Assembly (NCBI RefSeq): GCF_900120175.1
Contig: NZ_FQLF01000004.1
Span: 62,001-126,000 of the forward strand
Reading direction: 5' to 3'
Length of the DNA: 64,000 bases
DNA from: Oceanicoccus sp. KOV_DT_Chl
GTDB lineage: Bacteria; Pseudomonadota; Gammaproteobacteria; Pseudomonadales; Dasaniaceae
In this document: positions 14,439 to 54,862 of the stretch, in pieces
Layout: every line of letters starts with the position of its first letter
How positions within the stretch are numbered: position 1 is the stretch's first letter
Made by a program: the position numbers and the translations under genes
The notes under the pieces: model-generated
Database searches by the model: none
Seen by the model: only the letters and a program-made list of their open reading frames with translations
Told to the model about the DNA's origin: nothing

Positions 14439-15832
14439 ATGGCTGCTATTAAACCGCGTCGTCCGTTTACTGATCGCTTGGCACAGTATCAGCTTTCTGA
14501 GCATCATCTTGCTCATCCCCATATTTCCGGGCAGTTAGTCCGAGTAGTAGGTATGACTCTTGAGGTCGTTGGTCTGGAGCTGGCGATTGGTTGTCGCTGT
14601 TTAATCTTGAATACCGACCAACGAAGTATAGAAGCTGAAGTGGTTGGTTTTGCTGAGCACAAATTATTTTTAATGCCAATCGAGCCTGTTGCGCATTTAA
14701 AACCCGGCTTACGCGTTGTCCCTATTGGTAGCGACGATAAAATTCCAGCGGGTATGGAATTATTAGGTCGAGTGATAGATGGTGCGGGTAGGCCTTTGGA
14801 TGGTAAAGGGCCGCTAGGTAATACACAAACCGTGGATATGCAGGCTGAATTAATTAACCCGTTGGAGCGCAAGCCGATTTCAACAGTGTTAGATGTTGGT
14901 ATCCGCGCAATTAATTCGGTATTAACTGTGGGGCGAGGTCAGCGGCTGGGTTTGTTTGCAGGTAGTGGCGTTGGTAAAAGTGTTTTATTGGGTATGATGA
15001 CCAAATTTACCGAGGCCGATGTGGTGGTGGTGGGGCTGGTGGGCGAACGTGGTCGTGAGGTCAAAGAATTTATTGAGCAAGTGCTGGATGAGGAGGGTTG
15101 CGGCGTTCAGTGGTGATAGCATCCCCCGCAGATGATGCGCCATTAATGAGGATGCGAGCGGCGATGCTGGCGACCCGGGTGGCGGAGCAGTTTCGCGATG
15201 AAGGTAAGCATGTGCTGTTATTAATGGATTCCTTAACCCGCTATGCTCAAGCGCAGCGTGAAATTGCGCTGTCCATTGGCGAGCCGCCAGCCACTAAAGG
15301 ATACCCGCCATCGGTATTTGCAAAAATTCCACAGCTGGTAGAGAGGGCAGGCAACGATGCTGAAGGCAAGGGGTCTGTCACCGCATTTTATACGGTGCTG
15401 ACTGAAGGAGACGACCTGCAAGATCCGGTTGCTGATGCTGCCCGAGCCATACTCGATGGTCATGTGGTGCTGTCACGGGCGCTGGCTGATGAGGGGCACT
15501 ATCCGGCAATCGATATCGAAGGTTCAATCAGCCGTGCAATGCCTAATATTGTTGCGCCGGAGCATTTAGCATCGGCACAGCGGTTGCGGCATTTGTATTC
15601 TCGCTATCAACAAAGCCGCGATTTAATCAGTGTTGGAGCTTATGTGGCAGGGAGTGACCCGGAAACGGATGCGGCGATAGAGCGCTTGCCCGCTATTAAA
15701 AAATTCTTACAGCAAGGGCTGAAAGAATCCATGAGTGTGGCAATGAGTGTTGCGGAGCTAAAAAGTATCTTAACCCCTCCCAAACCAGCTGCAACTCAGC
15801 AGGCTGAGTTGCCTGCAGTAAAAGCACGTTGA
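14439..15832 (+). pseudogene. fliI: Flagellum-specific ATP synthase FliI, split by a -1 frameshift
   Basis: Type III export ATPase that powers flagellar protein export. Residues through '[22 protein letters not shown]' read in one frame (14439-15116, Walker A G175-SGVGK-S181), then the protein continues without loss in the -1 frame from TTG 15098 as '[23 protein letters not shown]... QLVERAGN' to 15832. The break is at GAGGAGGGTTGCGG (15089-15102); one extra T (GGT TTG) would restore a product of about 465 residues, the normal length. Both halves are otherwise intact and conserved, so a sequencing or assembly deletion is more likely than decay. ATG 14439 is preferred over TTG 14430. Confidence 0.92.
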
Positions 15833-15846
15833 GCCGGTAGAGTGCC

Positions 15847-16287
15847 ATGGCCGAAAAACCCTCTAAACGCTTACAGACAGTACTTAGGCTGGCTAAGCTA
15901 AAAGAGCAGCAGGCAGCGGAGAAGCTCGCCAATGCGATTCGGCTAGTGCAGGCGCAGAAAGCGCAGTTGCAACAGCTTGATCAGTATAAGGCTGAATACG
16001 GCAATCAATTTCAACAGTCCGTTGCGCAACAGCTTAATGTAGCCAAGTTGGCTAATTTCCAGCGTTTTTATCATAATCTGGAGCAGGTGGGGGAAACCCA
16101 GCAAGAGCGACAGGTGCTGGCTGAACAGCAACAAGATCAGGCCAGAGCGCTCTGGCAGCAGCAATATTCACGGCATAAAAATATGCAATCTCTGATTGAG
16201 CGCAAGCAGCATCAAGAACAGGCGTCTGAGGATAAAAAACTGCAACGTGAACAGGATGATCGTAAATATCCTTCTGACCATGATTAG
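15847..16287 (+). CDS. fliJ: Flagellar export protein FliJ
   Basis: A 146-residue, highly charged, Gln-rich coiled-coil protein with 'TVLRLAKLKEQQAAEKLANAIRLVQAQKAQLQQLDQYKAEY' type heptads (quoted in part). In the family it is the central stalk of the FliH-FliI export ATPase and a chaperone escort. It lies 14 bp after the fliI stop and has a suitable length. Sequence conservation in FliJ is low, so position in the operon is a main support. Confidence 0.88.
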   Translation: MAEKPSKRLQTVLRLAKLKEQQAAEKLANAIRLVQAQKAQLQQLDQYKAEYGNQFQQSVAQQLNVAKLANFQRFYHNLEQVGETQQERQVLAEQQQDQARALWQQQYSRHKNMQSLIERKQHQEQASEDKKLQREQDDRKYPSDHD

Positions 16288-16415
16288 CTTTTCTGGCTTG
16301 GTTAATGGGTATTAGCTTATTTCAATTTATTGATTCGCTTGTGTATTTTCTTGGCTATGGTCTATATTCATTGATAGATTTCAACATACTCTCAAGTTTA
16401 TAACGGAGCCCAGCT

Positions 16416-16721
16416 ATGGCAATCTCTTCTTCAATTACGGCAGATTCCAACGAACTAACTATTACTATTGAAGGACGCTTTGACTTTAGTTCGCATCAGG
16501 AATTTCGTCGCGCCTATGAAGGTTTGGCCACTAAGCCAGATAGCTATGTGGTGGATATGAACGCAACCGCTTATTTGGATAGTTCAGCCTTGGGGATGTT
16601 GTTGTTGTTAAGAGATTATGCTGGTGGTGACAGTGCAAATATCAGTATTGCTAATTGTAATGATGATGTGAAAAAGATCCTTTCAATTTCTAATTTTGAA
16701 CAACTCTTTAAAATTAAGTAG
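16416..16721 (+). CDS. STAS-domain anti-sigma-factor antagonist-like protein
   Basis: A 101-residue single STAS domain. The segment 'DMNATAYLDSSALGMLLLLRDYA' contains the expected phosphorylatable serine (S56 or S57). CGGAG precedes the ATG. Its neighbours are a REC-PP2C-HATPase protein and an Hpt protein, the same trio found between fliJ and fliK in Pseudomonas. By analogy with SpoIIAA/RsbV and the HsbA/HsbR systems, its serine would be phosphorylated and dephosphorylated by the next gene's kinase/phosphatase domains; this is inference. Confidence 0.9.
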   Translation: MAISSSITADSNELTITIEGRFDFSSHQEFRRAYEGLATKPDSYVVDMNATAYLDSSALGMLLLLRDYAGGDSANISIANCNDDVKKILSISNFEQLFKIK

Positions 16722-16787
16722 CTCGGCTCGGCTATTCAGTATCCCAGGGCTTATCCATTCAGTCTCTATAGATGAGCCCGTGCTGCT

Positions 16788-18497
16788 ATGTTAAATTCCA
16801 GTCCCCTCGGTAAGATTAAAATTCTCATTGCTGATGATAGCAATACTGATCGCTTACTACTCCAGACTATTCTGAAAAAGCAGGGCCATGAGGTCGTGGT
16901 TGCTAGCGATGGCCTTGAGGCCGTTGATGTTTTTCTAGCGCAATCACCAAGCATTGTATTGATGGATGCGCTGATGCCCAGAATGGATGGCTTTGAGGCC
17001 GCGCAAAAAATCAAACAGTTAGCGGGTGAAGATTTTGTGCCGATTATTTTTCTCACCTCGTTACAAGAAGCTGATTCGCTAGCCCGTTGTCTGGATGCTG
17101 GCGGGGATGATTTTTTATCCAAGCCTTATAATAGCGTCATTTTACAAGCCAAAATTAATGCATTTTCACGCATGCGCGAAATGCATAGAACGGTTAAGTC
17201 GCAGCGTGATGAAATTTCTGCTCACAATGATCGCTTGCTTCGTGAGCAGGAAGTCGCGAAAAGAGTGTTTGATAAAGTCGCCCATGAAGGGTGTCTTGAT
17301 GCCTCTAATATTAAGTATGCGTTATCGCCCATCGCTATTTTTAATGGTGATGTAGCCTTGGCTGGTGTTAGTTCTGCTGGTCACTTAGTGGTTTTGTTAG
17401 GAGATTTTACCGGCCATGGTTTGGATGCCGCAATCGGTGCTATGCCTTTGGCACAAAGCTTTTATAGCATGTTGGAAAAAGGCTTTTCCATGCAGGATAT
17501 TTTGGCAGAAATTAATAGTAAATTGCATGAAGTGTTGCCGGTAGGTGTATTTTGTTGTGCCATTATGGCTGAAATTAATTTTACTGCTGCAACCATGCGG
17601 GTGTGGAATGGCGGTTTACCAGATGCATTTATATATCGGCCATCATCAGCGGATATTACCCGGCTTGCTTCCCAACATCTCCCCTTGGGTGTCCGTGCAC
17701 AACTGGATTTTAATAATAGTGTGATGACCTATGGGATTGAAACGGATGATCGATTGTATTTGTGGTCGGATGGCATCCATGAAGCGACCAATGAAAGTGG
17801 TGAGATGTTTGGTGAGCCGCGACTGGTTCAGGTTTTTGAAGATAATACCGATGCTGAGAATTTATTTACGGAATTGAATATCGCTGTTAACTCTTTTATT
17901 GCAGAGGATTCCGTTGGTGATGACATTTCGTTAGTTGAAGTAAAAATGGTCCCTCCAGAGCAATTTAAGGTTGAGCGCCCCCAGATTATTGGTGAGCAGC
18001 AAGCAGGGCCAAGAGATTGGTCGCTCAATTACCAACTGCGGCCGGATACACTACGTGATTTTGATCCTTTGCCAATGTTACTGTACGTATTAATGAGTGT
18101 ACCTTTTTTGCGTAACTCTGGAGGCCAAATCTATACGGTCATGGCGGAGCTCTATGCCAATGCCTTAGAGCATGGCGTTTTAAAACTGGAGTCTGCAATG
18201 AAAGACTCCACTGAGGGTTTTAACCAATATTATCAATTACGCAAGGAGCGGCTGGAGCAGCTTACCGAGGGTTTAATTAGTGTGGAGCTGGACTATAAAG
18301 GCAGTCGCCATGGCGGTGTTTTACGTATCATCGTGGAAGATAGTGGTGAGGGTTTTAATCATCAGGGGTTGTTAATGGGCTCACCCGATCAGCCGTATTC
18401 AGGGCGCGGCATCAATCTATTGCTTTCGATCTGTGAGTCTGTAGAATTTTTTGGTCGGGGTAATAGGGTCTGTGCCACATTTGTTTGGGGTGATTGA
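16788..18497 (+). CDS. Response regulator with PP2C phosphatase and HATPase (RsbW-like) domains
   Basis: A 569-residue three-domain switch protein. REC domain residues 8-125 with phospho-acceptor D60 ('SIVLMDALMPRMDG'), a short coiled linker (about 130-165), a SpoIIE/PP2C-type serine phosphatase (about 175-390; 'GDFTGHGLDAAIGAMPLAQ', 'LWSDGIHEATN', 'VGDDISLVEV'), and a C-terminal anti-sigma-kinase-like HATPase domain ('AELYANALEHGVL', 'EDSGEGFNH', 'GRGINLL'). The architecture matches HsbR-type regulators of Pseudomonas. It probably acts on the STAS protein encoded just upstream and takes phosphoryl groups through the Hpt protein downstream (inference from position). Confidence 0.92.
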   Translation: MLNSSPLGKIKILIADDSNTDRLLLQTILKKQGHEVVVASDGLEAVDVFLAQSPSIVLMDALMPRMDGFEAAQKIKQLAGEDFVPIIFLTSLQEADSLARCLDAGGDDFLSKPYNSVILQAKINAFSRMREMHRTVKSQRDEISAHNDRLLREQEVAKRVFDKVAHEGCLDASNIKYALSPIAIFNGDVALAGVSSAGHLVVLLGDFTGHGLDAAIGAMPLAQSFYSMLEKGFSMQDILAEINSKLHEVLPVGVFCCAIMAEINFTAATMRVWNGGLPDAFIYRPSSADITRLASQHLPLGVRAQLDFNNSVMTYGIETDDRLYLWSDGIHEATNESGEMFGEPRLVQVFEDNTDAENLFTELNIAVNSFIAEDSVGDDISLVEVKMVPPEQFKVERPQIIGEQQAGPRDWSLNYQLRPDTLRDFDPLPMLLYVLMSVPFLRNSGGQIYTVMAELYANALEHGVLKLESAMKDSTEGFNQYYQLRKERLEQLTEGLISVELDYKGSRHGGVLRIIVEDSGEGFNHQGLLMGSPDQPYSGRGINLLLSICESVEFFGRGNRVCATFVWGD

Positions 18498-18562
18498 TTG
18501 TGCTAACCAATCATCGACTAGGGCCTTGATATCGTCTAGGCTAAGAAATTAAGAAACCAGGT

Positions 18563-18576
18563 TTGATTTTGATCAA
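18563..18576 (+). promoter_or_regulatory. FNR/Anr-like palindrome upstream of Hpt gene
   Basis: TTGAT-TTTG-ATCAA matches the FNR/Anr consensus TTGAT-N4-ATCAA exactly. It ends 17 bp before the Hpt start codon, too close to act as a classical activator site, so it would be a repressor position or a chance match. Confidence 0.3.
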
Positions 18577-18593
18577 TAATAAGAGGGTGTGCA

Positions 18594-18935
18594 ATGGAGC
18601 AGGCAACAGATCACATCGATTTAGAGGCTTTGAAAGAGCTACAAGCGGTGATGGGTGAAGAGTTTTCGTTGTTGATAGATACGTTTACCAGTGACAGTAT
18701 TTTACGTATTGAAGGTATTAAAGCTGCTGTAGCCAGTGCGGATCCAGAAGCCATTCGGCGCGCGGCTCACAGTTTCAAAGGTAGTGCGGGTAATATGGCT
18801 GCCATTCGCCTGACTGAATTGTGTCGTTCCATGGAAGAAATTGGCTTTCAGGGTAGCAGCGACGGCTGTGCAGAATTACTGGTCAGTATCGAGGCCGAAT
18901 ATGAACAGGTCAAAACGGTGCTGGCCTCGTTATAA
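18594..18935 (+). CDS. Hpt-domain phosphotransfer protein
   Basis: A 113-residue stand-alone histidine phosphotransfer protein. The signature 'RRAAHSFKGSAGNMAA' places the phospho-histidine at H59. Such proteins relay phosphate between hybrid kinases and response regulators. GAGGG lies upstream of the ATG. Its location after the REC-PP2C protein suggests it feeds that REC domain, as proposed for the flagellar-cluster Hpt gene of Pseudomonas. Confidence 0.93.
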   Translation: MEQATDHIDLEALKELQAVMGEEFSLLIDTFTSDSILRIEGIKAAVASADPEAIRRAAHSFKGSAGNMAAIRLTELCRSMEEIGFQGSSDGCAELLVSIEAEYEQVKTVLASL

Positions 18936-19011
18936 AGTCTCGTTGTCAAAACACCCTATCAAAGCCGCTTATAAGATTCAGGTCAGTGTTGTTTTTGCTA
19001 AATCTGTAATG

Positions 19012-19029
19012 TTGGCCATGTAATTGCAT
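19012..19029 (+). promoter_or_regulatory. fliK: Sigma-54 promoter of fliK
   Basis: TTGGCCATGTAATTGCAT has GG (19014-19015) and GC (19026-19027) with exactly 10 bases between and fits TGGCACG-N4-TTGCA closely. It lies 47 bp upstream of the fliK ATG (19077), giving a leader of roughly 40 nt. It implies that fliK is transcribed separately from the signalling trio upstream. Confidence 0.78.
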
Positions 19030-19076
19030 TTATCCCGTTAGTCACACTTATATGATGATTAATTTTGGGGAATACA

Positions 19077-20558
19077 ATGAACTCTACAGGTCAGGGACTT
19101 AGTTCAAATCCTTTGTTGGGTAAGGTGGATCTAGCTGCCAGTGCTGATCGGGGTAAGTCCCTGGATGCGTCACTAGCTGCCTCCAAGTCACTCAATAATA
19201 AAGACTTTTCCAATATAATGGGGCGGCAGCTGAGCGAAAATAATGTGCCGACCACGCAGGCCGCTGCGGTAGTTTCCAGTCCAGCTTCCATTCCCTCAAT
19301 ACCCATATTTGCTGCTCATAGCCCTGTGACGTTGTTTGCCGCTGCCGGCGGCAAAAGCTTGCCAGTTGATGGCCTTGGCTTGCCGCCAGAGCTCACGACG
19401 GATATCGTTTCGACCGCTGCCAATGCTGGTATGACTGTCTTAGGGAGGGCGAATTCCAGCAGTGATCAAGGTGCTGCGACTTTAAGTCTGCAGGCTGCTA
19501 CGGAGCCATCAGCGTTGATTGCAACCGATGAAAATCCACTGACGGGTGATGAAGCGGTTACTCCAATAGCTATTGCAGCCGACGATGCATTGGATGTCGA
19601 TGCGGCATCGGCAGTTATTAGTAGTGGCGGGGTACCTGCCAATACACCCCAAATGACCAATGGTGCTAGTAAGGTTGGATCGCAACCGGCTAATACTGCA
19701 TCGCAGGGTTTTGCTCAACCGGGTAGCTCGGGGGTAATGCCGTCATCAGTGGCGGGGCCCGTGGCTGATATTTCCGCAGCTGGGGCGTCACAAGGGTTGC
19801 TGGCAACACCTGCTGATATCTCTGTGACTGTAGCAGCGGCGACGTCGCCTATGTCAACCACGGTTGCCGGGGGGGCTGAGGCTGCTGTAGTGCAGACTAA
19901 CAATGTATTGCAGCAAGCCGGTTTGGCTGGAGCAGTTGCCGCGAACAGCAGTAATGCGTTTAAAGCGGTGATGGAGCAATCCACAGCAGGTAAGCTGATT
20001 ACTGAGTCCGTGGCTGCTGCGGTAAGCGATGATACTATTGACTCTGCCAGCCCATTGCGTACGGATAACACGCCAGCGGCGAGAGCTGCAGCTGCTACCA
20101 GCACTGTGCATACTTCAGTGCCTGTCGAAGTCGGTAAGCAGGGGTGGAGTGAGACTGTCATGCAGCGAGTAATGTGGATGAGCTCGCAGAATGTTTCCAA
20201 GGCTGAAATCGCTTTGGATCCACCGGAGCTAGGCCCTTTGCAAGTTCGTATCAGTTCTAGCGGTGATCAAACCAGCGTGGTTTTTACCAGTTCCCATGGG
20301 GTCGTGCGTGATGCGCTTGATCAAGGTTTGCCAAGGCTGCGTGAAATGATGGAAAGTCAGGGTTTGGATTTAGCTGATGTGGATGTTTCCGACCAGCAAG
20401 CCCAGCAGCAGCGCTCAGGCGCTGAAGGGTCACAAACTGACGGCGCTAATAATAGTAGTACTGCAGATAATTTGATGGCAACTGAAGAGCAGGTTGACGA
20501 TTTAAGTGAGCAGGCGGTAGTAATTAGTCAGTCGTCATTGGTCGATCAATACGTTTAA
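19077..20558 (+). CDS. fliK: Flagellar hook-length control protein FliK
   Basis: A 493-residue protein with a long Ala/Ser/Thr-rich, low-complexity N-terminal region (residues about 1-350, the secreted ruler part) and the conserved Flg_hook C-terminal domain (about 360-450: 'AEIALDPPELGPLQVRISS', 'VVFTSSHGVVRDALDQGLPRLREMM'). It measures hook length and switches export specificity. ATG 19077 follows GGGG by 6 nt; an in-frame TTG at 19065 is less likely. Preceded by its own sigma-54 promoter. Confidence 0.93.
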   Translation: MNSTGQGLSSNPLLGKVDLAASADRGKSLDASLAASKSLNNKDFSNIMGRQLSENNVPTTQAAAVVSSPASIPSIPIFAAHSPVTLFAAAGGKSLPVDGLGLPPELTTDIVSTAANAGMTVLGRANSSSDQGAATLSLQAATEPSALIATDENPLTGDEAVTPIAIAADDALDVDAASAVISSGGVPANTPQMTNGASKVGSQPANTASQGFAQPGSSGVMPSSVAGPVADISAAGASQGLLATPADISVTVAAATSPMSTTVAGGAEAAVVQTNNVLQQAGLAGAVAANSSNAFKAVMEQSTAGKLITESVAAAVSDDTIDSASPLRTDNTPAARAAAATSTVHTSVPVEVGKQGWSETVMQRVMWMSSQNVSKAEIALDPPELGPLQVRISSSGDQTSVVFTSSHGVVRDALDQGLPRLREMMESQGLDLADVDVSDQQAQQQRSGAEGSQTDGANNSSTADNLMATEEQVDDLSEQAVVISQSSLVDQYV

Positions 20559-20572
20559 AGTTTCTCCATTCA

Positions 20573-20598
20573 AAGGCACTGGGATTGGCTAGTGCCTT
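20573..20598. terminator. Hairpin after fliK
   Basis: An 8-bp perfect stem AAGGCACT / AGTGCCTT with a 10-nt loop lies 15 bp after the fliK stop, in the gap between convergent fliK and the phospholipase gene. No T-tract follows on the plus strand. Confidence 0.5.
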
Positions 20599-20646
20599 AC
20601 AGCAACTAATTTCACTTCTACCTTAAAATGGCTGGCTGCTAGCAGG

Positions 20647-21645: not shown

Positions 21646-21796
21646 GGGGCAGTCACTGGGAGCAGTATTGGGTTAATTATTTTTCATGTGAGTGTGGCCG
21701 TTTCGGCGCGTCACGCTGGCAGCGGATAATGACATAATAAATCGGTAAAATCTGTCTATACTTAATTATCGCCTATTAATTTTGGAAACTACTGTT

Positions 21797-22300: not shown

Positions 22301-22303
22301 GGT

Positions 22304-23863
22304 ATGACTGCAAAAATTTATATTCCTCGCGATACAACAAGTGTTTCTTTAGGGGCAGATAAAATCGCTACCAAGTTGGCAGCTTACTTTGACGATCAGC
22401 AAATAGCTGTAGAGATTGTGCGTAATGGTAGTCGTGGTCTTTACTGGTTAGAGCCGATGATAGAGGTCGACACTGAGCAAGGTCGTATGGCCTACGGCCC
22501 AGTGACTTTAGATGCACTTGCAGATTTTATTGATGGCGAGTGTTGGCTGGGTAATAAGCAGAATCCGCTCTGTTTAGGTTTAACTGATGAGATTGCTTAT
22601 CTCAAAAATCAACAACGATTAACCTTTGCTCGCGTGGGTGTGATCGATCCCTTATCGTTAGCGGATTATCGCCAATCAGGTGGCTTTATTGGTTTGGAAA
22701 AAGCGTTGATGTTGTCTTCGCAACAGTTGGTCGATGCTGTAAAAGATTCGGGACTACGGGGTCGTGGCGGTGCTGCGTTTCCTACCGGGATTAAATGGCA
22801 GACAGTGTTAGATACGGTAGCAACACAAAAATATATTGTTTGTAACGCCGATGAGGGTGACTCAGGCACCTATGCTGATCGCATGTTAATGGAGTCGGAT
22901 CCATTGAGCTTAATTGAAGGTATGATTATCGCTGGTTTAGCGGTTGGTGCTAGTCACGGTTATATTTATCTACGTGAAGAATATCCGTTGGCGCATCAGC
23001 AACTGAAGCAGGCCATAGCTATTGCGCAGCAACACAATTATTTGGGCGACAATATTGCTGGCAGTGAGCATTCTTTTTCACTGGAAGTACGTTTAGGTGC
23101 CGGTGCTTATATTTGTGGCGAAGAAACGGCTTTGCTGGATAGTCTGGAAGGCAAGCGCGGCATGGTCAGAGCCAAGCCGCCATTGCCAGCAATAAAAGGT
23201 TTATTCGGTTTGCCGACAGTCATTAACAATGTTATTTCGCTGGCGACAGTGCCGTGGATTTTTGCTCATGGCGCTGACGCTTATCAGCAATATGGTATGG
23301 GCCGTTCTCGTGGCAGCCTGGCATTTCAATTAGCGGGCAATGTAAAACGAGCCGGGCTGGTTGAATTGGCTTTTGGCACAAGTTTGGGTGTATTGCTTAA
23401 TCAGTTTGGTGGTGGCACTCGAACCGAAAAACCTATTAAGGCGGTGCAGGTTGGCGGCCCGTTGGGGGCTTATTTATCTGTTGATCAATTGGACATAGCA
23501 TTGGATTATGAAACCTTTACTGCAGCGGATGCAGTATTGGGGCATGGCGGTGTGGTAGTGTTTGATGACTCGGTCGATATGAGTGAGCAGGCACAGTTTT
23601 CTATGGAATTTTGCGCCGTTGAGTCTTGTGGTAAATGTACTCCTTGTCGCATTGGTTCAAGCCGTGGCGTAGAGCTTATCGACACCATTCGCGGCGGTGA
23701 TAATGCGGAATCCAGTCGTGAATTATTAGAAGATCTTTGCGATACCATGGCCAATGGCTCGTTGTGTGCGATGGGTGGGATGACGCCGATTCCTGTGCTA
23801 AGTGCATTAAAGCAATTTCCTGAAGATTTCGGCCTGAACAACATTTCGCAAGGTGACGTTTAA
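22304..23863 (+). CDS. fdsB: NAD-dependent formate dehydrogenase beta subunit (NuoF-like)
   Basis: A 519-residue diaphorase subunit that reduces NAD+ through FMN and a [4Fe-4S] cluster. Motifs: 'GLRGRGGAAFPTGIKW' and 'CNADEGDSGTYADR' (FMN/NAD site), 'GAGAYICGEETALLDSLEG', and the cluster site 'ESCGKCTPCRIG'. About 110 N-terminal residues precede the NuoF core, as in FdsB. It starts 3 bp after fdsG and its TAA overlaps the ATG of fdsA by one base. Confidence 0.95.
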   Translation: MTAKIYIPRDTTSVSLGADKIATKLAAYFDDQQIAVEIVRNGSRGLYWLEPMIEVDTEQGRMAYGPVTLDALADFIDGECWLGNKQNPLCLGLTDEIAYLKNQQRLTFARVGVIDPLSLADYRQSGGFIGLEKALMLSSQQLVDAVKDSGLRGRGGAAFPTGIKWQTVLDTVATQKYIVCNADEGDSGTYADRMLMESDPLSLIEGMIIAGLAVGASHGYIYLREEYPLAHQQLKQAIAIAQQHNYLGDNIAGSEHSFSLEVRLGAGAYICGEETALLDSLEGKRGMVRAKPPLPAIKGLFGLPTVINNVISLATVPWIFAHGADAYQQYGMGRSRGSLAFQLAGNVKRAGLVELAFGTSLGVLLNQFGGGTRTEKPIKAVQVGGPLGAYLSVDQLDIALDYETFTAADAVLGHGGVVVFDDSVDMSEQAQFSMEFCAVESCGKCTPCRIGSSRGVELIDTIRGGDNAESSRELLEDLCDTMANGSLCAMGGMTPIPVLSALKQFPEDFGLNNISQGDV

Positions 23864-26732
23864 TGTTGCAGTTTTTCGATCCAGCCAAAGATTACGGTAC
23901 GCCTGCGGTTGTCACTACTACTGAGCCGGTGACACTGCAGATAAATGGCCAGGCTGTCACGGTGCCTGCGGGTACTTCGGTGATGCGTGCAGCAGCGCTC
24001 GCCAATATTGATATTCCAAAATTGTGTGCATCTGACTCACTCGATGCCTTTGGCTCCTGTCGCGTTTGTCTGGTTGAAATTGACGGACGTAAAGGTTATC
24101 CGGCCTCCTGTACCACACCGGTGGAGCAGGGTTGGTAGTGCGTACCCAAACTGACAAGTTAACCAAGCTGCGTCGCAATGTCCTGGAGCTATACGTCTCA
24201 GATCATCCACTGGACTGTGGCAACTGTGCCGCTAATGGTAACTGTCAGCTGCAGGATTTAACCTTGGAATACGCTGTGACCGATAGTCGCTACACGAATA
24301 CAGCAAAAAATCATTCCACAGCGGCCATTGATGACAGTAATCCCTATTTTAGTTTTGATAGTAGTCAGTGCATTGTGTGTTCGCGGTGTGTGCGTGCCTG
24401 TGAAGAAGTACAAGGTACATTTGCTTTAACTATTGATGGTCGCGGTTTTGATTCGGTGGTTGCAGCCGGTCAGGCACAATCATTTATGGCTTCGGATTGC
24501 GTGTCTTGTGGCGCCTGCGTACAGGCCTGTCCGACGGTAGCGCTGACTGAAAAGTCGATCATCGAAAGCGGTCAGCCTGAGCATTCAGTTGTTACCACTT
24601 GCGCATACTGTGGTGTCGGTTGTGCGTTTAAAGCGGAAGTCAAAAATAATAGTGCCGTGGCTGGTGGCGTCGAAGTTGTACGAATGGAGCCTTACAAGGG
24701 CGGTGCAGCCAATGAAGGCCACTCTTGCGTTAAAGGCCGTTTCGCTTATGGTTATGCAACCCATAAAGATCGAATCACCACGCCGATGATCCGCGACAGT
24801 ATTGACCAGCCATGGCAGCTTGTGAGCTGGGATGAAGCAGTAACGTTTGCCGCTAACAAAATAAAATCTATTCAGCGGCAATATGGTAAAGACAGTGTCG
24901 GGGGTATAACTTCTTCACGTTGTACCAATGAAGAAACGTATCTCGTACAAAAATTAGTACGAGCAGCATTTGGTAATAATAATGTTGATACCTGCGCTCG
25001 TGTCTGTCATTCGCCTACCGGTTATGGGCTTAAAACCACCTTGGGTGAATCGGCGGGTACTCAAACCTTTGCTTCCGTTGAAAAAGCCGATGTCATACTG
25101 GTGATTGGCGCCAACCCCACCGATGCGCATCCGGTGTTTGCTTCACGACTAAAAAAACGTTTACGGGAAGGTGCTCGGCTAATTGTCGCGGATCCACGGC
25201 GGATTGATTTAGTAAAGAGTCCCCATGTTAGCGCTGCGTATCATTTGCCTTTATTGCCTGGGACTAATGTGGCGTTTATTAATTCCATGGCGCATGTCAT
25301 CGTCACCGAAAATTTGGCAGCAGATGCATTTATTGATGAGCGCTGCGATCAGCAGGCGTTTGATAAATGGCAGCAATTTATCCGTCAAACTAAAAACTCA
25401 CCAGAAGCGATGGCTGCCATCACCGGCATCCCCGCTGAGCAATTACGTCAGGCTGCAAGGCTCTATGCCAAGGGCGATAATGCCGCAATCTATTATGGTT
25501 TGGGTGTAACTGAACATAGTCAGGGTTCGTCCATGGTGATGGGTATTGCCAACCTGGCGATGTTGACCGGTAATATCGGTCGTGAAGGCGTGGGCGTTAA
25601 CCCATTGCGTGGCCAGAACAATGTGCAGGGGTCATGCGATATGGGCTCTTTCCCCCATGAGTTGCCCGGCTACCGTCATGTCGCTGATGATGCGGTGCGA
25701 ACGCAGTTTGAAAAAGTCTGGGGCGTTAGCATTGATAATGAGCCGGGATTGCGAATCCCTAATATGTTAGATGCTGCCATATCCGGTTCCTATAAAGGGC
25801 TTTATTGTCAGGGCGAAGATATTGCGCAATCCGACCCGAATACCCAGCATGTTGAGCAGGCATTGCGCAGTTTGGAATGTTTAATCGTGCAGGATATATT
25901 TATCAATGAGACCGCTAAATTTGCCCATGTGTTTTTACCGGGTGCCAGTTTTTTAGAAAAAGATGGTACTTTCACTAATGCGGAACGCAGAATTTCACCA
26001 GTTAGAAAAGTGATGGAGCCATTGGGTGGTAAAGCCGATTGGGAAGGTACAGTAGCGTTATCGAATGCATTGGGATATGCAATGAATTACAGTCACCCCT
26101 CAGAAATAATGGATGAAATAGCATCCTTAACACCAACCTTCAGCGGCGTTAGTTATAAGCGTATCGATGAACAGGGATCATTACAGTGGCCATGTAATGA
26201 TCAAACACCACAGGGTACGCCGATTATGCATGTGGATGAATTCGTCAGAGGCAAAGGTTATTTTGCTATCACTGAATATGTCGCTACCAATGAAAAAGTC
26301 ACTAAACGTTTTCCATTGTTATTAACCACTGGTCGAATCCTTAGCCAATACAATGTCGGGGCACAAACCCGTAGGACAGCTAATAGTGATTGGCACTCAC
26401 AGGATGTGTTAGAAGTACATCCCCATGATGCTGAGGATAGAGGGATTTTAAATGGTGATCGGGTATCCGTGGTCAGTCGAGCCGGAGAGACTGTGTTGAC
26501 TGCGCTGCTAACGGATAGAGTGCAACCCGGCGTGATTTACACCACCTTTCATCACCCTGAAACGGGCGCTAATGTGATTACCACTGATAATTCGGATTGG
26601 GCGACAAATTGCCCCGAGTACAAAGTGACAGCTGTAGACATTAAAAAAGTGACAGGCATTAGCCGCTGGCAAACTCAGCATGAACAGTTTAATACGCAAC
26701 AAAATAAATTATTAACGCAGCCAGAACCATAA
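23863..26732 (+). pseudogene. fdsA: NAD-dependent formate dehydrogenase alpha subunit (Mo), split by a -1 frameshift
   Basis: Catalytic molybdenum subunit, formate to CO2. The first 90 residues (23863-24138) carry a [2Fe-2S] site C55/C66/C69/C83 and end 'TTPVEQG'. The protein resumes in the -1 frame from TTG 24132 as 'LVVRTQTDKLTKLRRN', with a His/Cys3 [4Fe-4S] site (HPLDCGNCAANGNC), two ferredoxin sites (CIVCSRCVRAC, CVSCGACVQAC), a further [4Fe-4S] site (CAYCGVGC) and 'ARVCHSP', where the cysteine is the expected Mo ligand; no in-frame UGA selenocysteine. One extra T in GAGCAGGGTTGGTAG (24124-24138) would restore about 956 residues, normal for FdsA. Likely a base-calling deletion. Confidence 0.93.
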
Positions 26733-26735
26733 ACA

Positions 26736-37074: not shown

Positions 37075-37470
37075 TTACAGTTTCGGTTCATGTATTGATA
37101 GTAAGTCTATATCAGCTAAAAAGCTCTGTGCGTAGAGTAGCCAGTCCAGCAGTGTTTGATGAACAATAATCATTTCAGTTTTCGTTTTATTTTCTTGAGT
37201 TGCAATGATTTCTGCTTGTTGGGCAATGATCGACACGATATCACTTACTTCATAGACATCTAAGTCCAGGGCAATTAATTTATCCTGTGCATTGTTTATG
37301 TGTTGCAGTCGTTGCTCGGCGATGAGGTTTTGAATACGCAAAGCTGTGGCCGGATGGTTATCTCTCAGTAATTGGAATGATAGTTCCAGGCAGTCGAGGC
37401 TGAAATAGTTTGCCGCTATTGCTATCGGGTCGATAGGCTGGGAGTGATGAAATAACGTAGCCTTGTCCAA
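37075..37470 (-). CDS. Hypothetical protein
   Basis: A 131-residue, mostly helical, acidic protein without signal peptide or transmembrane segment. I do not recognise a family. The start is TTG 37470 with GAGG 8 nt upstream. It is convergent with yheU (60-bp gap) and divergent from tusA. Confidence 0.6.
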   Translation of the reverse strand: MDKATLFHHSQPIDPIAIAANYFSLDCLELSFQLLRDNHPATALRIQNLIAEQRLQHINNAQDKLIALDLDVYEVSDIVSIIAQQAEIIATQENKTKTEMIIVHQTLLDWLLYAQSFLADIDLLSIHEPKL

Positions 37471-37652
37471 AATAGAAGCCTCATTGGTCGTGGTAGTTAT
37501 GTCGTGATGCTATTTTTGTCAGGATGATTGCGTTTCGTTTTTTCGCTATGGCCTGAACATCCAGATTAATTAGCCAAAACGATAGCAGGTATCGCTTGAT
37601 AATTCTGCATGATAACGGACAATACGAAGAGATGGTAATGTTAGAATAATAT

Positions 37653-37889
37653 ATGATTTTTTCTACTGAGAAAACGCTGGATACCAGTGGTTTGATGTGC
37701 CCGGAACCGGTGATGATGTTGCATAATGCTATTCGCGATATTGATGTAGGCACCGTACTGGAAGTCATTGCCACTGATCCTTCGACGCAACGTGATATCC
37801 CCAAATTTTGCAGCTTTCTGGGTCATGAATTGTTGCGCCATGAAGAGCGTGATAACAAATTTTACTTTTATATCCAGAAACAGGGATAG
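37653..37889 (+). CDS. tusA: Sulfur carrier protein TusA
   Basis: A 78-residue TusA/SirA protein. The persulfide cysteine is C16 in '[15 protein letters not shown]', and the C-terminal half '[21 protein letters not shown]' is characteristic. It relays sulfur for tRNA 2-thiouridine and, in some bacteria, influences molybdenum cofactor use, relevant to the Mo formate dehydrogenase in this window (inference). Monocistronic. Confidence 0.93.
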
Positions 37890-44040: not shown

Positions 44041-44422
44041 ATGAGTGACATTAGGCATGGGCTAACATTAAGTATTGAAACTGTAGGTAATGAGAGTTTT
44101 TTTGTTAAAGGCTGTTGGCAAATTAACTCATGAAGATTATCAACTAATTGTACCAATGGTTGATGATGCGACCCGGGGCGTGAAAAACGCTCAGTTGGAT
44201 GTATTGGCGGATTGCTCGGATTTGGAAGGCTGGGAGCTAAGGGCCGCCTGGGATGACTTTAAGTTGGGTTTAAAGCACGGTAAAGAGTTTAGGCGTGTCG
44301 CTATTGTTGGTAATAAAAAATGGATGGAAGTTGCTGCTAAAGTCGGCGACTGGTTTGTTAGTGGTGATGTCAAATGCTTCGTTAGTAGCAATGAGGCTAT
44401 GGCTTGGATAAAATCGCAGTAG
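44041..44422 (+). pseudogene. SpoIIAA-like (STAS/UspA-type) protein, split by a +1 homopolymer frameshift
   Basis: The true start is ATG 44041 with GGAGG seven bases upstream, reading 'MSDIRHGLTLSIETVGNESFF' until an early stop. The rest of a SpoIIAA-like protein, 'LLKAVGKLTHEDYQLIVPMVD ... FVSSNEAMAWIKSQ', follows in another frame to 44422. The switch is at a run of seven T (44097-44103); with six T the product is 127 residues and continuous ('NESFLLKAVGKLTHED'). Proteins of this family are small cytoplasmic STAS-fold proteins of unclear role. A base-calling insertion is the simplest explanation. Confidence 0.85.
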
Positions 44423-44491
44423 TTGCTGTGCCTATTTGAATTTAGGTTTGAAAATTTATCGGGTAGTGGGAGATTGACAAACGTTGTTTGA

Positions 44492-45042
44492 ATGAAAAAT
44501 TTACAAAATCAGGTCTTGGTTAAATTTTTATTATTACTGCTGATATTAATTGGTTACTTTGCTTATCTCACGTATAAATTTGATTTTCTAACGGGGGCGT
44601 TGCTGCCTTAATTACATGGAGTTTTTTCGTGCTTTGCACCCCGGTTGCAGATGCCGGATTCTTGTTGGATTTTCCACTGCGTTTATTGTTTGGGATTCGA
44701 ATGGTGTTGTCAGAAATCGTGGTTTGGGTTGTGGCCATACTGATCAATATTATAGCCTTGTTATTTTTTGACGGTTTCTATCAAACTACTGTGCTAACAA
44801 AATTAATGCACGCGATATTGCTAACGCCATTCCCTTATTGGGCGGTAATAGTATTGTCCGGTTTTGGTACATTTTTATCTATTCGCTTTGGTGATGAGTT
44901 GCTAGATGTAGTGCACCATAAAGACCGTGATTTTTTTCATAGTCATCAATTTAAGCATGAGCTTGTGTTGTTTATGTTTTTTCTATTCGTCATATTTGGT
45001 TATTACGAGCTGATTACTTCTTTAGGCCTGCAGTTTGAGTAA
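44492..45042 (+). pseudogene. Conserved inner-membrane protein, split by a -1 frameshift
   Basis: ATG 44492 opens 'MKNLQNQVLVKFLLLLLILIGYF' and stops after 39 residues at TAA 44609. Adding one T to CCTTAATT (44606-44613) gives 'LLPLITWSFFVLCTPVADAGFLLDFP' and a continuous protein of about 183 residues to 45042. Four or more hydrophobic helices are visible, and 'LCTPVADAGFLLDFPLRLLFG' plus 'FGDELLDVVHHKDRDFFH' are segments I recall from a conserved uncharacterised bacterial membrane protein. The second half alone was readable only from an unsupported internal start. Function unknown. Confidence 0.82.
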
Positions 45043-45529
45043 AGCCACTGCAAAAAAGAAGAAATCGGGTCTTATTAAACGGGGTTTTTGCGGTCTGTTT
45101 TAGTTTTTTATCATCCCATGATAAATAGGGTTTTTCGTTGGTGCTATGGTGTCACGGACTAGTGCTCACCAGGTTCATTAACCTTATCTCTACAGATAGG
45201 GGTTGCTTGAGCTTGTGCATTGCTGGCAGTTGGCTGCTGTTATGCCCATACCTTTTGTAAAAGAAATGTCCGAGTCAGTAGTGCAGTCACCAAATCTGCA
45301 GTCTGGATGGCGTTTAATGCTGAGGTAATGATCTACCTGTATTTGTGATATTGATTTACTAAAATATAGTTCGATCATTAAATCATCATTAAATCAATAA
45401 GATAGATGTTTATTGGCTTGGCGAATTACAGAACTCTTCTATACTAAACTTCAAATAACCCGCTTTATTCTACTTTTTTATTGATTTTAGCTTCCTAACG
45501 GATCGGGGTCGCTTGTTGGAGTGCTAAAC
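45043..45529. other. Gap before porin gene (487 bp), with terminator-like hairpin
   Basis: TTTATCAT-CCC-ATGATAAA (45107-45125) is a perfect 8-bp stem shortly followed by TTTTT, a likely terminator for the membrane-protein gene. The remainder is AT-rich and has no convincing gene; a 62-codon minus-strand frame at 45190-45378 lacks an RBS and family resemblance. The final 150 bp should contain the porin promoter, but no clear -35/-10 pair stands out. Confidence 0.5.
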
Positions 45530-46837: not shown

Positions 46838-46888
46838 CAACTAGTATGCGCTTGCCCTATTTGCACGATTGATAATGGAGTTGTTTTT

Positions 46889-47974: not shown

Positions 47975-47975
47975 T

Positions 47976-49751: not shown

Positions 49752-49837
49752 TGTTTAAGCTTACACGTTATTTAAGCAATTGCTTTCATTTCGATCTATA
49801 CATACAATTTCCGCAAAATTTTTAGCCAGTATCACTA

Positions 49838-50359
49838 GTGAAAACATCTACACGCCATAATTATGTAAACTACTACTTCGCCTACGGTAGCAATATGAAC
49901 CCCGATCGAATGCGCGCGCGCGGTATCGATTTTAGGGAGGCAGTAGCTGCTAGTTTGCTCGATTTCAAATTGGTTTTTAATAAGCAGGCTACTGCAAAGC
50001 CAGGTATTGCTTATGCGAACGTGGCTTATGCCCGCGGCGAGTGCGTGGAAGGCGTTGTCTATCGATTGGCCACTGCTGAAGATATTACATTGATGGATCC
50101 TTTTGAAGGTAGTCCGGTACGTTATAGTCGTGAGGTCTACAGTCTCCACACTTCAGTTGGGCTGATTCATGCTTGGGTGTATGTCGCTAATAAAGCAATG
50201 CTAAAGGAGGGCTTATTGCCCGAGCGAAACTATTTAAATCATTTATTAGCTGGTAAAGCCTGGCACAGCGAAGCTTATCATCAGCGGTTGCTCAATGAAC
50301 CTTGTGTAGATAGTACAGTTGATAATTCGGGCAAAGACGGATTGATTTATAATGTTTAG
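49838..50359 (+). CDS. Gamma-glutamylcyclotransferase family protein
   Basis: A 173-residue GGCT-like protein. 'YYFAYGSNMNPDRMRARGI' is the substrate-loop signature and 'ECVEGVVYRLATAEDITLMDPFEG' contains the catalytic-type glutamate region. Such enzymes release 5-oxoproline from gamma-glutamyl compounds; PxpABC in this window would recycle it. The start is probably GTG 49838, with no clear RBS, so the N-terminus is uncertain. Confidence 0.88.
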   Translation: MKTSTRHNYVNYYFAYGSNMNPDRMRARGIDFREAVAASLLDFKLVFNKQATAKPGIAYANVAYARGECVEGVVYRLATAEDITLMDPFEGSPVRYSREVYSLHTSVGLIHAWVYVANKAMLKEGLLPERNYLNHLLAGKAWHSEAYHQRLLNEPCVDSTVDNSGKDGLIYNV

Positions 50360-50400
50360 GTTATCTATTTTATTATTACTGCCGTTGAGTTGAGGTAGAT

Positions 50401-51303
50401 TTGTCTAGCCCCGTGTTTCTGATCGACGCCTCTATCTATATTTTTAGAGCTTATTTTGCGATTCCTGATGAGTGGCATACTAAAGAGGGCATGCCTGTTA
50501 ATGCTCTCTATGGCTATGCTCAGTTCATGTTAAAGTTTTTACAAGCTGCAAAACCTGAACAGTTGGTTGTGGCTTATGATGAAAGTCTTGGTAGTTGCTT
50601 TCGAAATGATATCTACCCTGACTATAAAGTGAGTCGAGCTTTACCTGACGATACTTTGGCATTTCAATTACAGGCATGTAAAGCTTTTACCGAAGCGCTG
50701 GGGATTACTTCTTTAGCTGATGCTCGCTACGAAGCCGATGATATTATCGCTACGTTAGCCACACAGGCTCAGCAGCGGCAGCAAGCTATCTCTATAGTAA
50801 GCCGGGATAAAGATTTGGGGCAGTTGTTATTAAATGAGCACGATTGCCTTTGGGATTTTGCCGCAGATAAAAAAAACTATCAGCAGCAATTATATGAGCA
50901 CTTCTTAGTTAGGCCGGATCAGTTGTTAGATTATTTGGCATTACTTGGTGATAGCGTTGACGATATACCCGGTGTCCCTGGCATTGGGAAAAAAACTGCA
51001 GCGAATCTTTTGAGGCAATTTGGGAGTATAGAAAATTTGTTTAATGACTTGGATGCTGTCGCACAATGCGGTTTGCGAGGTGCGAAAAGCATTGCTTTAA
51101 AGTTACAGCACTATCGTCAGCAAATTAGTATGGCGCAAGCCTTGGTTCGTTTGGAGACGGCGATACCTCACTTGCTCGATTTTGATACCACTATGCTGGA
51201 GTGGTCGCCGCCGCCAGTTAGTCATGTCAATAATTTTTTTGCTGATTATAGTTTGGAAAAAAGATTTAAATCACAGTTATCACGTTGTTATTGGTGGCAA
51301 TAA
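50401..51303 (+). CDS. 5'-3' exonuclease (FEN/PolI-N-like)
   Basis: A 300-residue stand-alone 5'-nuclease homologous to the N-terminal domain of DNA polymerase I. Metal-ligand acidic residues are in 'FLIDASIYIFRAYFA', 'VAYDES', 'ARYEADDIIATLA', 'VSRDKDLGQLL', and the H3TH segment reads 'LGDSVDDIPGVPGIGKKTAANLLRQFGS' (quoted in part). It is in the size class of small exonucleases such as ExoIX. TTG start with GAGG upstream. It overlaps nothing and ends 3 bp before the pdxB start. Confidence 0.9.
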   Translation: MSSPVFLIDASIYIFRAYFAIPDEWHTKEGMPVNALYGYAQFMLKFLQAAKPEQLVVAYDESLGSCFRNDIYPDYKVSRALPDDTLAFQLQACKAFTEALGITSLADARYEADDIIATLATQAQQRQQAISIVSRDKDLGQLLLNEHDCLWDFAADKKNYQQQLYEHFLVRPDQLLDYLALLGDSVDDIPGVPGIGKKTAANLLRQFGSIENLFNDLDAVAQCGLRGAKSIALKLQHYRQQISMAQALVRLETAIPHLLDFDTTMLEWSPPPVSHVNNFFADYSLEKRFKSQLSRCYWWQ

Positions 51304-51305
51304 GC

Positions 51306-52454
51306 ATGAATGAAATACGCATTGTTGCTGATGAAAATATTCCTAATGTTATTGAACGTTTCTCTGGCTTAGGGTCAGTGAAAACGGTTAATGGGAGGGC
51401 TTTAACGAGTGATCAGCTGCAAGATGTTGATGTATTATTGGTGCGTTCAGTTACACCAGTTGCCGCCTCATTACTGGCCGGCACAGGCGTACGTTTCGTC
51501 GGCACCGCAACTATAGGGGTAGATCATCTGGATACCACTTACCTTGATGATCATGGCATTCATTGGGTCAGCGCGCCGGGTAGTAATGCGGACTCAGTTG
51601 CAGATTATGTGATCAGCTCCCTGTGCCGGTTAGATGGCGTTATTGGGAGTCTGCTGCGAGGCGCTACAGTAGGTATCGTGGGAATGGGAAATGTTGGTAG
51701 CCGTGTTTATCAACGATTATCACGGCTGGGTATAAAGTGTTATGGCTACGACCCTTTGATTGAACAGGATCGTTATCCCGTGATGACTGATCTTGAAACT
51801 GTGTTGGCTGCGGATGTGATTTGTTTGCATACGCCACTGACTACAACGGGTGACTTTCCAAGTTATCATTTACTTGATAAAGAAAAATTGGCGTCTTTAC
51901 AGTCCGGTACTGTTTTAATTAATGCGGGCCGCGGTGCAGTTATCGATAATCAGGCTTTAAAACAATTGTTGGAACAGCGTGATGATTTGTGTGTGGTGCT
52001 CGATGTGTGGGAGCCGGAGCCTGATATTGATATTGAGTTGATGAAGCGAGTGGATATTGCAACGCCGCATATTGCTGGTTATAGCCTGGATGGTAAGTTA
52101 GCAGGTTGCGAGATGTTATATCAGGCGTGTTGTGAATTTTTAGGGGTGTTAGCGTGTGATTCATCCCATGATCAAGGCCAGTTGTTGTCATTACATTTGC
52201 AGAAAACTCACCTACTAGATGAAGGTTTAATAGAGGCCGTACTGGCTTGTTATGATGTGGGGTTAGACGATCAGCGGCTGCGTGGCAGCATATTACATGG
52301 TGCTGATAGCGATCGAGGGTCGATTTTTGATCAGTTGCGAAAGCACTATCCTGTAAGGCGAGAAATCAGTCAGTATCAGATTAACCATACTGGCAAATTA
52401 GTACCGGCATTGCGGGATGCGCTAACGGCTCTGGGTTTTGTGTTGATAGAATGA
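51306..52454 (+). CDS. pdxB: Erythronate-4-phosphate dehydrogenase
   Basis: A 382-residue D-2-hydroxyacid dehydrogenase of the PdxB type, second step of DXP-dependent pyridoxal phosphate synthesis. 'MNEIRIVADENIPNVIERF', 'GTATIGVDHLD', the NAD fold 'VGIVGMGNVGSRVYQRL', and 'VLDVWEPEPDIDIELMKRVDIATPHIAGYSLDGK' with the catalytic His (quoted in part) are PdxB-specific. ATG 51306 is preferred; the frame extends seven residues upstream. Its last 33 bp overlap the antisense gene that follows. Confidence 0.96.
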   Translation: MNEIRIVADENIPNVIERFSGLGSVKTVNGRALTSDQLQDVDVLLVRSVTPVAASLLAGTGVRFVGTATIGVDHLDTTYLDDHGIHWVSAPGSNADSVADYVISSLCRLDGVIGSLLRGATVGIVGMGNVGSRVYQRLSRLGIKCYGYDPLIEQDRYPVMTDLETVLAADVICLHTPLTTTGDFPSYHLLDKEKLASLQSGTVLINAGRGAVIDNQALKQLLEQRDDLCVVLDVWEPEPDIDIELMKRVDIATPHIAGYSLDGKLAGCEMLYQACCEFLGVLACDSSHDQGQLLSLHLQKTHLLDEGLIEAVLACYDVGLDDQRLRGSILHGADSDRGSIFDQLRKHYPVRREISQYQINHTGKLVPALRDALTALGFVLIE

Positions 52455-52619
52455 AAGCGCTTCAGCTTCGAGTGCCTGACACGCATTTTGAATCATTTGT
52501 TCAGTGATAAAAATTTCACGCCCGTCATCATCAATTAGTGCGCATTGAAAAATAGATTCTGTTATTGAATCATCAGCATTATTGTTGCTTGCAGTATTGG
52601 TCAGATATGAAATAGTCAT
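52422..52619 (-). CDS. PA1571-like small protein
   Basis: A 65-residue acidic protein with the segment 'FQCALIDDDGREIFITEQMIQNACQALE', which I recall from the PA1571 family of unknown function. GGAGG lies 4-5 bases upstream of the ATG, strong support for translation. Its 3' end overlaps pdxB by 33 bp on the opposite strand. Confidence 0.8.
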   Translation of the reverse strand: MTISYLTNTASNNNADDSITESIFQCALIDDDGREIFITEQMIQNACQALEAEALSFYQHKTQSR

Positions 52620-52767
52620 TCGGCCTCCTTTATTATGCTTATGTTACGAAGTATATGTGACACTTTTGTGGCAGCCTATGTGCTATTACACAGATAAAAG
52701 CGAGTTTATTTACTATTTTTTTAGTTAATTTTTTACTTATTTGAACGCAGCTAAGTACAGAGGTTAG

Positions 52768-53925
52768 ATGTTTAATTTAGGTTTGGTGGTTAATCCTTTA
52801 GCTGGCATTGGTGGTCCGCTTGCTCTCAAAGGTAGTGATGGTGACGACATAGTGGCTGAGGCTGAACGCCGAGGTGCCGAGTGTCGGGCAATGCAACGGA
52901 CTGCGGAGGCGTTGCGCATGCTGGTTGGGCAGCCCTTGATGGTGTTTTGTTTTGCCGATGATATGGGTGAAACCTCCGCCAAAATGGCTGGGTTGAATTA
53001 TCAATTGGTTGGCCAGTCCGAGCATTTACTTAAGGGGCGGCATAGTACCGCAGCTGATACTCAACATGCGGTTAGCAGGCTGCTTGAGGAGGGGGTTGAT
53101 ATTATTGTTTTTGCCGGTGGAGACGGTACTGCCCGTGATGTATTTCAGGTGCTGGGTAGCGACTTCCCCGTCTTAGGCATCCCCTGTGGAGTAAAAATGC
53201 ATTCAGCTGTCTATGCTATTTCCCCACAAGGTGCGGGTGAAATTATGTTGCGAATGCTGGAGGGGGGATTAGTCGATATTGGTTTGGCAGAGGTGCGCGA
53301 TATCGATGAGCAGGCTTTTCGGCAGGGTGTGGTTCGTTCTAGATTTTATGGTGAATTATTAGTGCCGCGGGAAGGGCAGTTTTTACAGCAGGTGAAATCC
53401 TCAGGCCGCGAAGTTGAAGCATTGGTGGTACAGGATATCGGCGCGGATATTGTTGAATCCATGGGCGCTGATTATTTGTATCTTATAGGCCCGGGCACAA
53501 CCCCTCAGGGAATAATGGAAGAGTTAGGGGTGCCCAATACATTACTGGGTTTTGATGCCATTAAAGGGGGGCAGGTATTGGGTCATGATCTGGATGAAAA
53601 AGGGCTGATCGCATTGGTTGAGCGGCATCCTGGCAAAACAAAAATAATAATTACTGCCATTGGGGGGCAGGGACATATTTTAGGTCGTGGCAACCAACAA
53701 TTAAGTCCGGCAGTGATCAGGATGGTGGGCTTGGATAATTTGATTATCGTTGCGACTAAAACCAAAATCACTGGTCTGTCAGGCCGGCCCTTGCTGGTGG
53801 ACAGTAATGACCCCGAACTGGATGAGGCCTTGTCTGGCTATCGTACAGTCATCACGGGGTATCATGATTCCATAATTTATCCTGTCGGTTATGGGGCAAA
53901 AGCGGTACCGGAGCTTGTTTCATGA
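52768..53925 (+). CDS. ATP-NAD kinase family protein
   Basis: A 385-residue protein with the diacylglycerol-kinase/NAD-kinase fold. 'GLVVNPLAGIGGPLALKGSDG' and 'IIVFAGGDGTARDVFQVLG' are the nucleotide-binding motifs. This branch is annotated as ATP-NAD kinase family; it is distinct from the essential NAD kinase (NadK) and its substrate is unproven. It overlaps the downstream methyltransferase by 4 bp (ATGA), so the two are coupled. Confidence 0.88.
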   Translation: MFNLGLVVNPLAGIGGPLALKGSDGDDIVAEAERRGAECRAMQRTAEALRMLVGQPLMVFCFADDMGETSAKMAGLNYQLVGQSEHLLKGRHSTAADTQHAVSRLLEEGVDIIVFAGGDGTARDVFQVLGSDFPVLGIPCGVKMHSAVYAISPQGAGEIMLRMLEGGLVDIGLAEVRDIDEQAFRQGVVRSRFYGELLVPREGQFLQQVKSSGREVEALVVQDIGADIVESMGADYLYLIGPGTTPQGIMEELGVPNTLLGFDAIKGGQVLGHDLDEKGLIALVERHPGKTKIIITAIGGQGHILGRGNQQLSPAVIRMVGLDNLIIVATKTKITGLSGRPLLVDSNDPELDEALSGYRTVITGYHDSIIYPVGYGAKAVPELVS

Positions 53926-54862
53926 AACAGGTTCTTGAAGCTATTCAAACGGGCTTATCACTAACAATAACAGATGCCCGTCGCTTGTTTCATGGTCGCG
54001 GTCAGTATTATGAAGGTCTTGAATTTATTAATGTTGATTGGTTTTCTCCGGTATTGCTCCTGACCTTATACCAACAACCGGACGCAACTCTATGGGCTGA
54101 TTTTATAAAGCAGCTCGAGCTTGTTAAAGGACAGGTCGATTGTGCGCTGGTGCAGCGGCGTTACATTCGTGGCGCGCCTTTTGAGTGTCTGTGGGCGAAC
54201 CAGATACAGACGAGCAAGGTGGCCACTCAATCAAAGCGTTAGCAGTAGAGCAAGGCATGACGTTCGAGTTAACCTTGGGTGGTAAACAAAATATAGGCTT
54301 CTTTTTGGATATGGCACCAGGCCGCGAATGGCTAAAGCAGCGTAGTCAGGGGATGAAGGTACTTAATCTGTTTTCCTATACCTGTTCATTTTCTGTTGCC
54401 GCAATCGCGGGCGGTGCTAAAACAGTCGTTAATGCTGATATGAGTCGGGCGGCATTAAATGTTGGCCGCCATAATCACCGCCTAAATGGACATGAACAAC
54501 AATTACGTCGTGATATTGAGTTTTTGCCCTACGATATTTTTCGTTCGTGGAAAAAAATTACCAGTAAAGGGCCATACGATATAGTTATCATTGACCCACC
54601 GTCGCGACAAAAGGGCAGTTTTATTGCTGACACGGATTATGCCAAGGTGTTACGGCGATTACCGGCGTTATTGCCTCATGGTGGTCAAGTATTAGCGTGT
54701 TTAAATGCGCCGGAATTGAGTGAACATTTTTTACTGGAATTGATGGCTGAGGAATGTCCGCTAGCGAAGTTTGTTGAGCGGCTATCTAATCGTGCAGATT
54801 TTCCTGAGAAAAACCCGCAGCGTAACTTAAAGATGCTTCACTATTATTTACCTGCTGGCTAA
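53922..54862 (+). pseudogene. Class I SAM-dependent methyltransferase (RlmI-like), split by a -1 frameshift
   Basis: First part 53922-54242 reads through '...YIRGAPFECLW'; the remaining protein continues in the -1 frame as 'GEPDTDEQGGHSIKALAVEQGMTFELTLGGKQNIGFF' (in part) to 54862. One extra G in CTGTGGGCGAAC (54189-54200) would give W-G-E-P and a continuous product of about 313 residues. Motifs: SAM loop 'VLNLFSYTCSFSVAAIAGGA' and catalytic 'DPPSRQKGSF', as in RlmI-type RNA methyltransferases. RNA is the likely substrate, but the exact base is unknown. Its end overlaps the next gene (minus strand) by 4 bp. Confidence 0.87.

Follow-up and report, generated by a model that had tools for sequence, protein, structure and literature searches.

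Gene-splitting frame changes in a 64-kb stretch of the Oceanicoccus sp. KOV_DT_Chl assembly recur across the genome and are most probably read-level indel errors

Five genes in one stretch of Oceanicoccus sp. KOV_DT_Chl DNA, namely fliI, fdsA, a SpoIIAA-like gene, a putative membrane-protein gene and an RlmI-like methyltransferase gene, are each divided between two reading frames. The stretch, here called the window, is 64,000 nt long (G000:C4:62001-126000, where C4 is the contig) and belongs to a genome, G000, of 4,825,034 bases in 7 contigs, the assembly of which is rated 99.96% complete with 1.42% contamination. It was compared with relatives of the same order (G001-G017), among them G005, which is complete and belongs to the same genus. 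The results suggest, with a probability of roughly 0.96, that the frame changes are assembly errors arising from read-level insertions and deletions (indels). The initial annotation had preferred such errors to gene decay or mismatch-repair deficiency; the spread of frame changes over five contigs, the breakage of core genes and a locus that was assembled twice all favour the same choice. The organism most likely has all five genes whole.

The five frame changes are present in the sequence close to where they had been placed, and the pieces on either side are separate open frames, all on the + strand. The N-terminal piece of fliI (14430-15116) stops soon after the frame change near 15099 and matches positions 1-190 of 414 of the NCBIfam FliI_clade1 profile and 1-67 of Pfam ATP-synt_ab, while the C-terminal piece in the other frame (15098-15832) continues ATP-synt_ab at 69-213 and carries T3SS_ATPase_C. 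The RlmI-like methyltransferase is divided in a similar manner, with Pfam PF10672 (Methyltrans_SAM) running from 1-89 of 286 in the N-terminal piece (53922-54242) to 86-284 of 286 in the remainder (54185-54862) and the frame changing within 54192-54228. In both genes, one Pfam profile spans the two pieces. For fdsA, the N-terminal piece (23863-24138) holds the 2Fe-2S domain (Pfam Fer2_4) and the remainder (24132-26732), formate dehydrogenase alpha, matches NCBIfam TIGR01591 in another frame, with the change near 24127. The SpoIIAA-like gene consists of a 30-aa N-terminal piece (44041-44133), assigned from its sequence and by itself without a Pfam match, and a remainder in another frame (44090-44422) that matches Pfam PF11964 at 4-106 of 106; the change lies near 44095, where there is a T run.

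Four of the five proteins have homologues encoded in one frame. Such homologues were found for FliI in 14 of 17 relatives (446-524 aa; one of the others is truncated by a contig end and two have distant paralogues only), for FdsA in three of nine (G005, G008 and G009; 961-1007 aa, 76-80%; the others have distant paralogues only), for the methyltransferase in seven of nine (308-334 aa) and for the SpoIIAA-like protein in four of nine. We then aligned open reading frames (ORFs) of other genomes to the whole window with frame changes allowed, retaining for each strand of each 400-nt bin the 15 best; the references include loci of a single genome that overlap one another. The references cover 42,915 of the 64,000 nt, and about one third of the window, including the membrane-protein gene, is without cover. 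Within the covered part, the supported sense-strand frame changes are the four already noted, at 15099 (16 sense references agreeing), 24127 (5/5), 44095 (4/4) and 54192-54228 (8/8). The fliI point is covered by 21 references, of which the five other than the agreeing 16 are antisense ORFs. A frame change at 10609 was disregarded, as it came from a single antisense reference. The claim that each of the five genes contains a full-length conserved protein is borne out for fliI, fdsA, the SpoIIAA-like gene and the RlmI-like gene, and is not confirmed for the membrane-protein gene.

The putative membrane-protein gene (44492-45042) comprises a 39-aa N-terminal piece (44492-44611, +), for which no homologue was found, and a C-terminal piece in another frame (44629-45042, +). 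A homologue of the protein was sought in nine relatives, a plasmid collection, Pfam and NCBIfam and none was found, and the C-terminal piece likewise had no match in any of these, so the description of this gene as conserved could not be confirmed. Hexamer composition scored best in frame 0 for the N-terminal piece (0.40) and in frame 2, relative to 44492, for the C-terminal piece (0.43). Of 1439 control-gene chunks of 117 nt, 1422 scored highest in the true frame. It is only this in-frame hexamer composition that suggests a frame change here.

To place the window within its genome, ORFs of G000 and G005 were compared in samples of 760 kb and 640 kb, respectively, with stretches picked by synteny where known. 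Contigs C3 and C6 consist of N throughout and were left out. The alignment allowed one-base shifts in either direction, other lengths being outside its scope, and an event was counted where no single target frame spans the reference ORF. We found 27 frameshifts (22 deletions and 5 insertions) that break the G000 copy, in 23 of 237 orthologous genes (215,913 nt) on five contigs. The reverse comparison, with G005 as the target, gave 7 frameshifts in 6 of 242 genes (217,330 nt), and stretches of G001, G004 and G008 gave one in 46 genes (37,275 nt). Expressed per 100 kb of orthologous coding DNA, the rate is 12.5 for G000 and 3.2 in reverse (Fisher P 0.0005, with bases as trials). A comparison with a close relative, as the initial annotation had advised, therefore reveals a frameshift excess in G000, 27 against 7. 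The raw counts before the single-frame rule were 31 vs 15, most of the reverse events mirroring G000 breaks because the out-of-frame tail of a broken ORF is still similar. For two of the seven remaining reverse events, the orthologous position in G000 is also broken, and one of these two lies in a short ORF that is possibly no gene. Two earlier versions of the test were set aside. A tblastn search with the ORFs of all retrieved loci had unusable controls, antisense ORFs of G+C-rich Pseudomonas loci giving hundreds of false frame changes (768 in the named loci); the Pseudomonas loci were then dropped as targets and the longest non-overlapping ORFs kept. A stricter junction rule (20 vs 4) missed the RlmI-like site and was replaced by the frame-change alignment.

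The frameshifts occur on all five contigs (per 100 kb, C1 15.6, C2 8.8, C4 16.3, C5 4.7 and C7 20.4). If the window had the rate of the sampled genome, its covered 42.9 kb would hold about 5.4 frameshifts, and four were found. The window is thus typical of the genome and holds no local cluster.

The decisive evidence comes from a locus that was assembled twice. The end of contig C5 passes through a ribosomal RNA (rRNA) operon into a second copy of the C5 start. Over 2,522 aligned columns, the start and end copies are separated by one mismatch and 28 gap events, and all but one of the gaps (27) belong to the end copy; a BLAST alignment of the two gave 7 mismatches and 92 gap columns. The start copy has intact ORFs of 195 and 326 aa, and the end copy is fragmented, with four shifts in three genes. 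A ratio of 28 gaps to one substitution is unexpected of mutation and typical of unpolished reads, which supports the error reading. A similar pattern is seen in two copies of rRNA-operon sequence, from the ends of C2 and C5, with one mismatch to 16 gap events over 4,296 columns. Contigs C1, C2 and C5 all end in or beside rRNA operons, and rRNA-operon sequence is common to L217:11342-20000 (C5 end), L215:15715-20000 (C2 end), L032:1-1434 (C1 start) and L039:2501-5021 (C5 start). Two readings fit this arrangement: C5 (845 kb) may be a circular replicon, or the assembly may have been misjoined at the rRNA operon.

Shifts are also numerous near some contig starts. Within 5.2 kb of the starts (9,259 nt), a limit that was set post hoc, there are 7 shifts where 0.90 would be expected. 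All seven belong to C7 and C4, and the first 5.2 kb of C5 have none. The nadB gene at the C7 start (G000:C7:1-1156, L041) has four frame changes in 1.2 kb. In G005, the genes found at the C4 start (G000:C4:1-4100, L022; RseA-like and lepA) adjoin nadB, and C7 and C4 are therefore probably neighbours.

The run context of the indels was examined against intervals of the same length drawn from the same genes. Deletions fall at G/C runs of at least 3 in 16 of 22 cases, compared to 3.9 expected, and none of 2000 draws was as high. For all shifts, the figure is 18 of 27 against 5.1 expected, the five insertions alone not being enriched. Deletions avoid A/T runs (mean run 1.36 vs a background of 2.30). 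At A/T runs of at least 4 there are 2 of the 27 shifts, and at G/C runs of at least 4 there are 11. In the window, protein evidence places each frame change in an interval and not at an exact base or run. The longest run in the fliI and fdsA intervals is of G. The loss of a T from TTT at three of the sites, as first proposed, is thus not established, since these two intervals also contain a G run.

Which genes are broken bears on whether the indels could be real. Intact G005 counterparts could be named for 19 of the 23 broken genes, and these include LepA, RseP, BamA, LpxA, TilS, SucD, NadB and YidD. The rest are fliI, fdsA, the methyltransferase and a short ORF of doubtful status. In Escherichia coli, bamA, lpxA, tilS and rseP are essential. 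Within the stretches compared, essential genes are not spared in G000, the orthologues of these four being split. Broken and intact genes are equally similar to G005 (74.2% vs 75.9% identity, P 0.52). Internal stops, counted in 188 G000 genes of at least 150 aa and more than 30 codons from the ends, number one against 25 frameshifts. The lone stop follows an apparent shift by 10 codons and belongs to a gene pair of which G005 seems to have the shorter copy. Before filtering, there were 16 in-frame stops in G000 (9 genes) and 5 in G005 (4 genes), most of them in ORFs that are short or of low identity.

One of the split genes is mutS itself (G000:C1, L219:6235-8826). Positions 1-750 and 750-840 of the family model lie in different frames, with the shift at residue 770 of 869; the gene is in one piece in G005, and mutL of G000 is whole. 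This raises the alternative that part of the indels are real, from a mutS mutator culture or population with slippage indels to which assembly errors were added, which we consider improbable. Still less probable is that the strain is wholly a mismatch-repair-deficient mutator with a genuinely defective mutS and a genome in which slippage indels have built up. As assembled, G000 has in common with mutS mutator strains a split mutS and small indels throughout the genome. It is unlike them in its broken core genes, its avoidance of A/T runs and its near lack of internal stops. Broken bamA, lpxA, tilS and rseP are unexpected for a living cell. Deletions avoid A/T runs even though runs of at least 6 in the compared genes are 281 for A/T and 20 for G/C. 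Mutators raise base substitutions too, whereas there is a single internal stop beside the 25 shifts and a single substitution beside the 28 gaps of the twice-assembled locus. Under the error reading, the split mutS is itself unsurprising, since a rate of 12.5 shifts per 100 kb gives a 2.6-kb gene roughly a one-in-four chance of being struck. It is unsafe to read a mutator genotype from this assembly alone.

Real young pseudogenes, in an organism that is losing functions, are a very unlikely explanation. All five window genes are plausibly dispensable in some niche. However, core genes are struck alike, the broken genes are no less conserved than the intact ones, and 25 indels to one internal stop is not the pattern of decay; moreover, the twice-assembled locus has different frame changes in its two copies. 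Programmed frameshifting or transcript slippage that restores the protein at some sites, for which the T run of the SpoIIAA-like gene would be a candidate, has a negligible chance of being correct, as one-frame homologues at four of the five sites indicate that the shift is not conserved there and similar changes were sampled at 27 places, in genes whose functions are unrelated.

We therefore return to errors in the assembly as the preferred explanation. Single-base indels, with longer ones at contig ends, would have come from the reads and survived consensus building. Most of these errors would be losses of bases in or close to short G/C runs; they would affect each of the five large contigs, with the highest density towards some of the contig ends, and each gene struck by such an indel would appear as two overlapping open frames. 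Reads of the true sequence would be expected to lack the five indels, and we infer that a long-read technology was their source. The closest printed description is of gene-fragmenting errors in long-read assemblies (PMC12007338). The features in common with such residual errors are genome-wide splitting of genes by small indels, a majority of deletions, apparent pseudogenes that are whole in relatives and a link to homopolymers two to eight bases long (PMC12007338). Residual indels in long-read bacterial assemblies are also a theme of the Polypolish (PMC8812927), Homopolish (PMC8011154) and R10.4 (PMC9262707) papers.

Several observations weigh against this explanation. In the Kastor study of a Pseudomonas syringae long-read assembly, deletion errors are reported mostly at A/T runs, whereas those of G000 favour G/C runs (PMC12007338). 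In the end copy of the C5 locus, 14 of the 27 gaps span more than one base and only 4 of 13 single-base losses are in runs of at least 3, so homopolymers do not account for all of the errors there. Error density may be higher at contig ends than in the interior, to which the window belongs (62-126 kb of the 401 kb of C4). Alignment identity is under 60% for four of the 27 frameshifts, and 23 are left without them. Finally, the case for errors is built on the consensus sequence.

If the frame changes are errors, as we consider most probable, they affect how this genome can be used. The assembly passes at 99.96% completeness, yet about one in ten of the compared genes is split (23/237). Statements on lost functions, pseudogene counts or a mutator genotype drawn from it would be wrong or unsafe. 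The advice that flagellar and formate functions should not be called lost is upheld, as the sequence cannot carry a claim of loss. Comparing loci that are written twice at contig ends provides a cheap internal test for such assemblies.

Some further features were observed. On C5, direct repeats with a 0.7-kb unit, about 97% alike, occupy G000:C5:79579-81524 (end of L189 and start of L190). On the - strand of the window, adjoining ORFs of 131 and 107 aa lie at 37075-37804, next to an ORF of 237 aa; none of them matches NCBIfam, and the region is covered by proteins of relatives with no supported frame change. Two transfer RNA genes are located at 58766-59037 (+) of the window.

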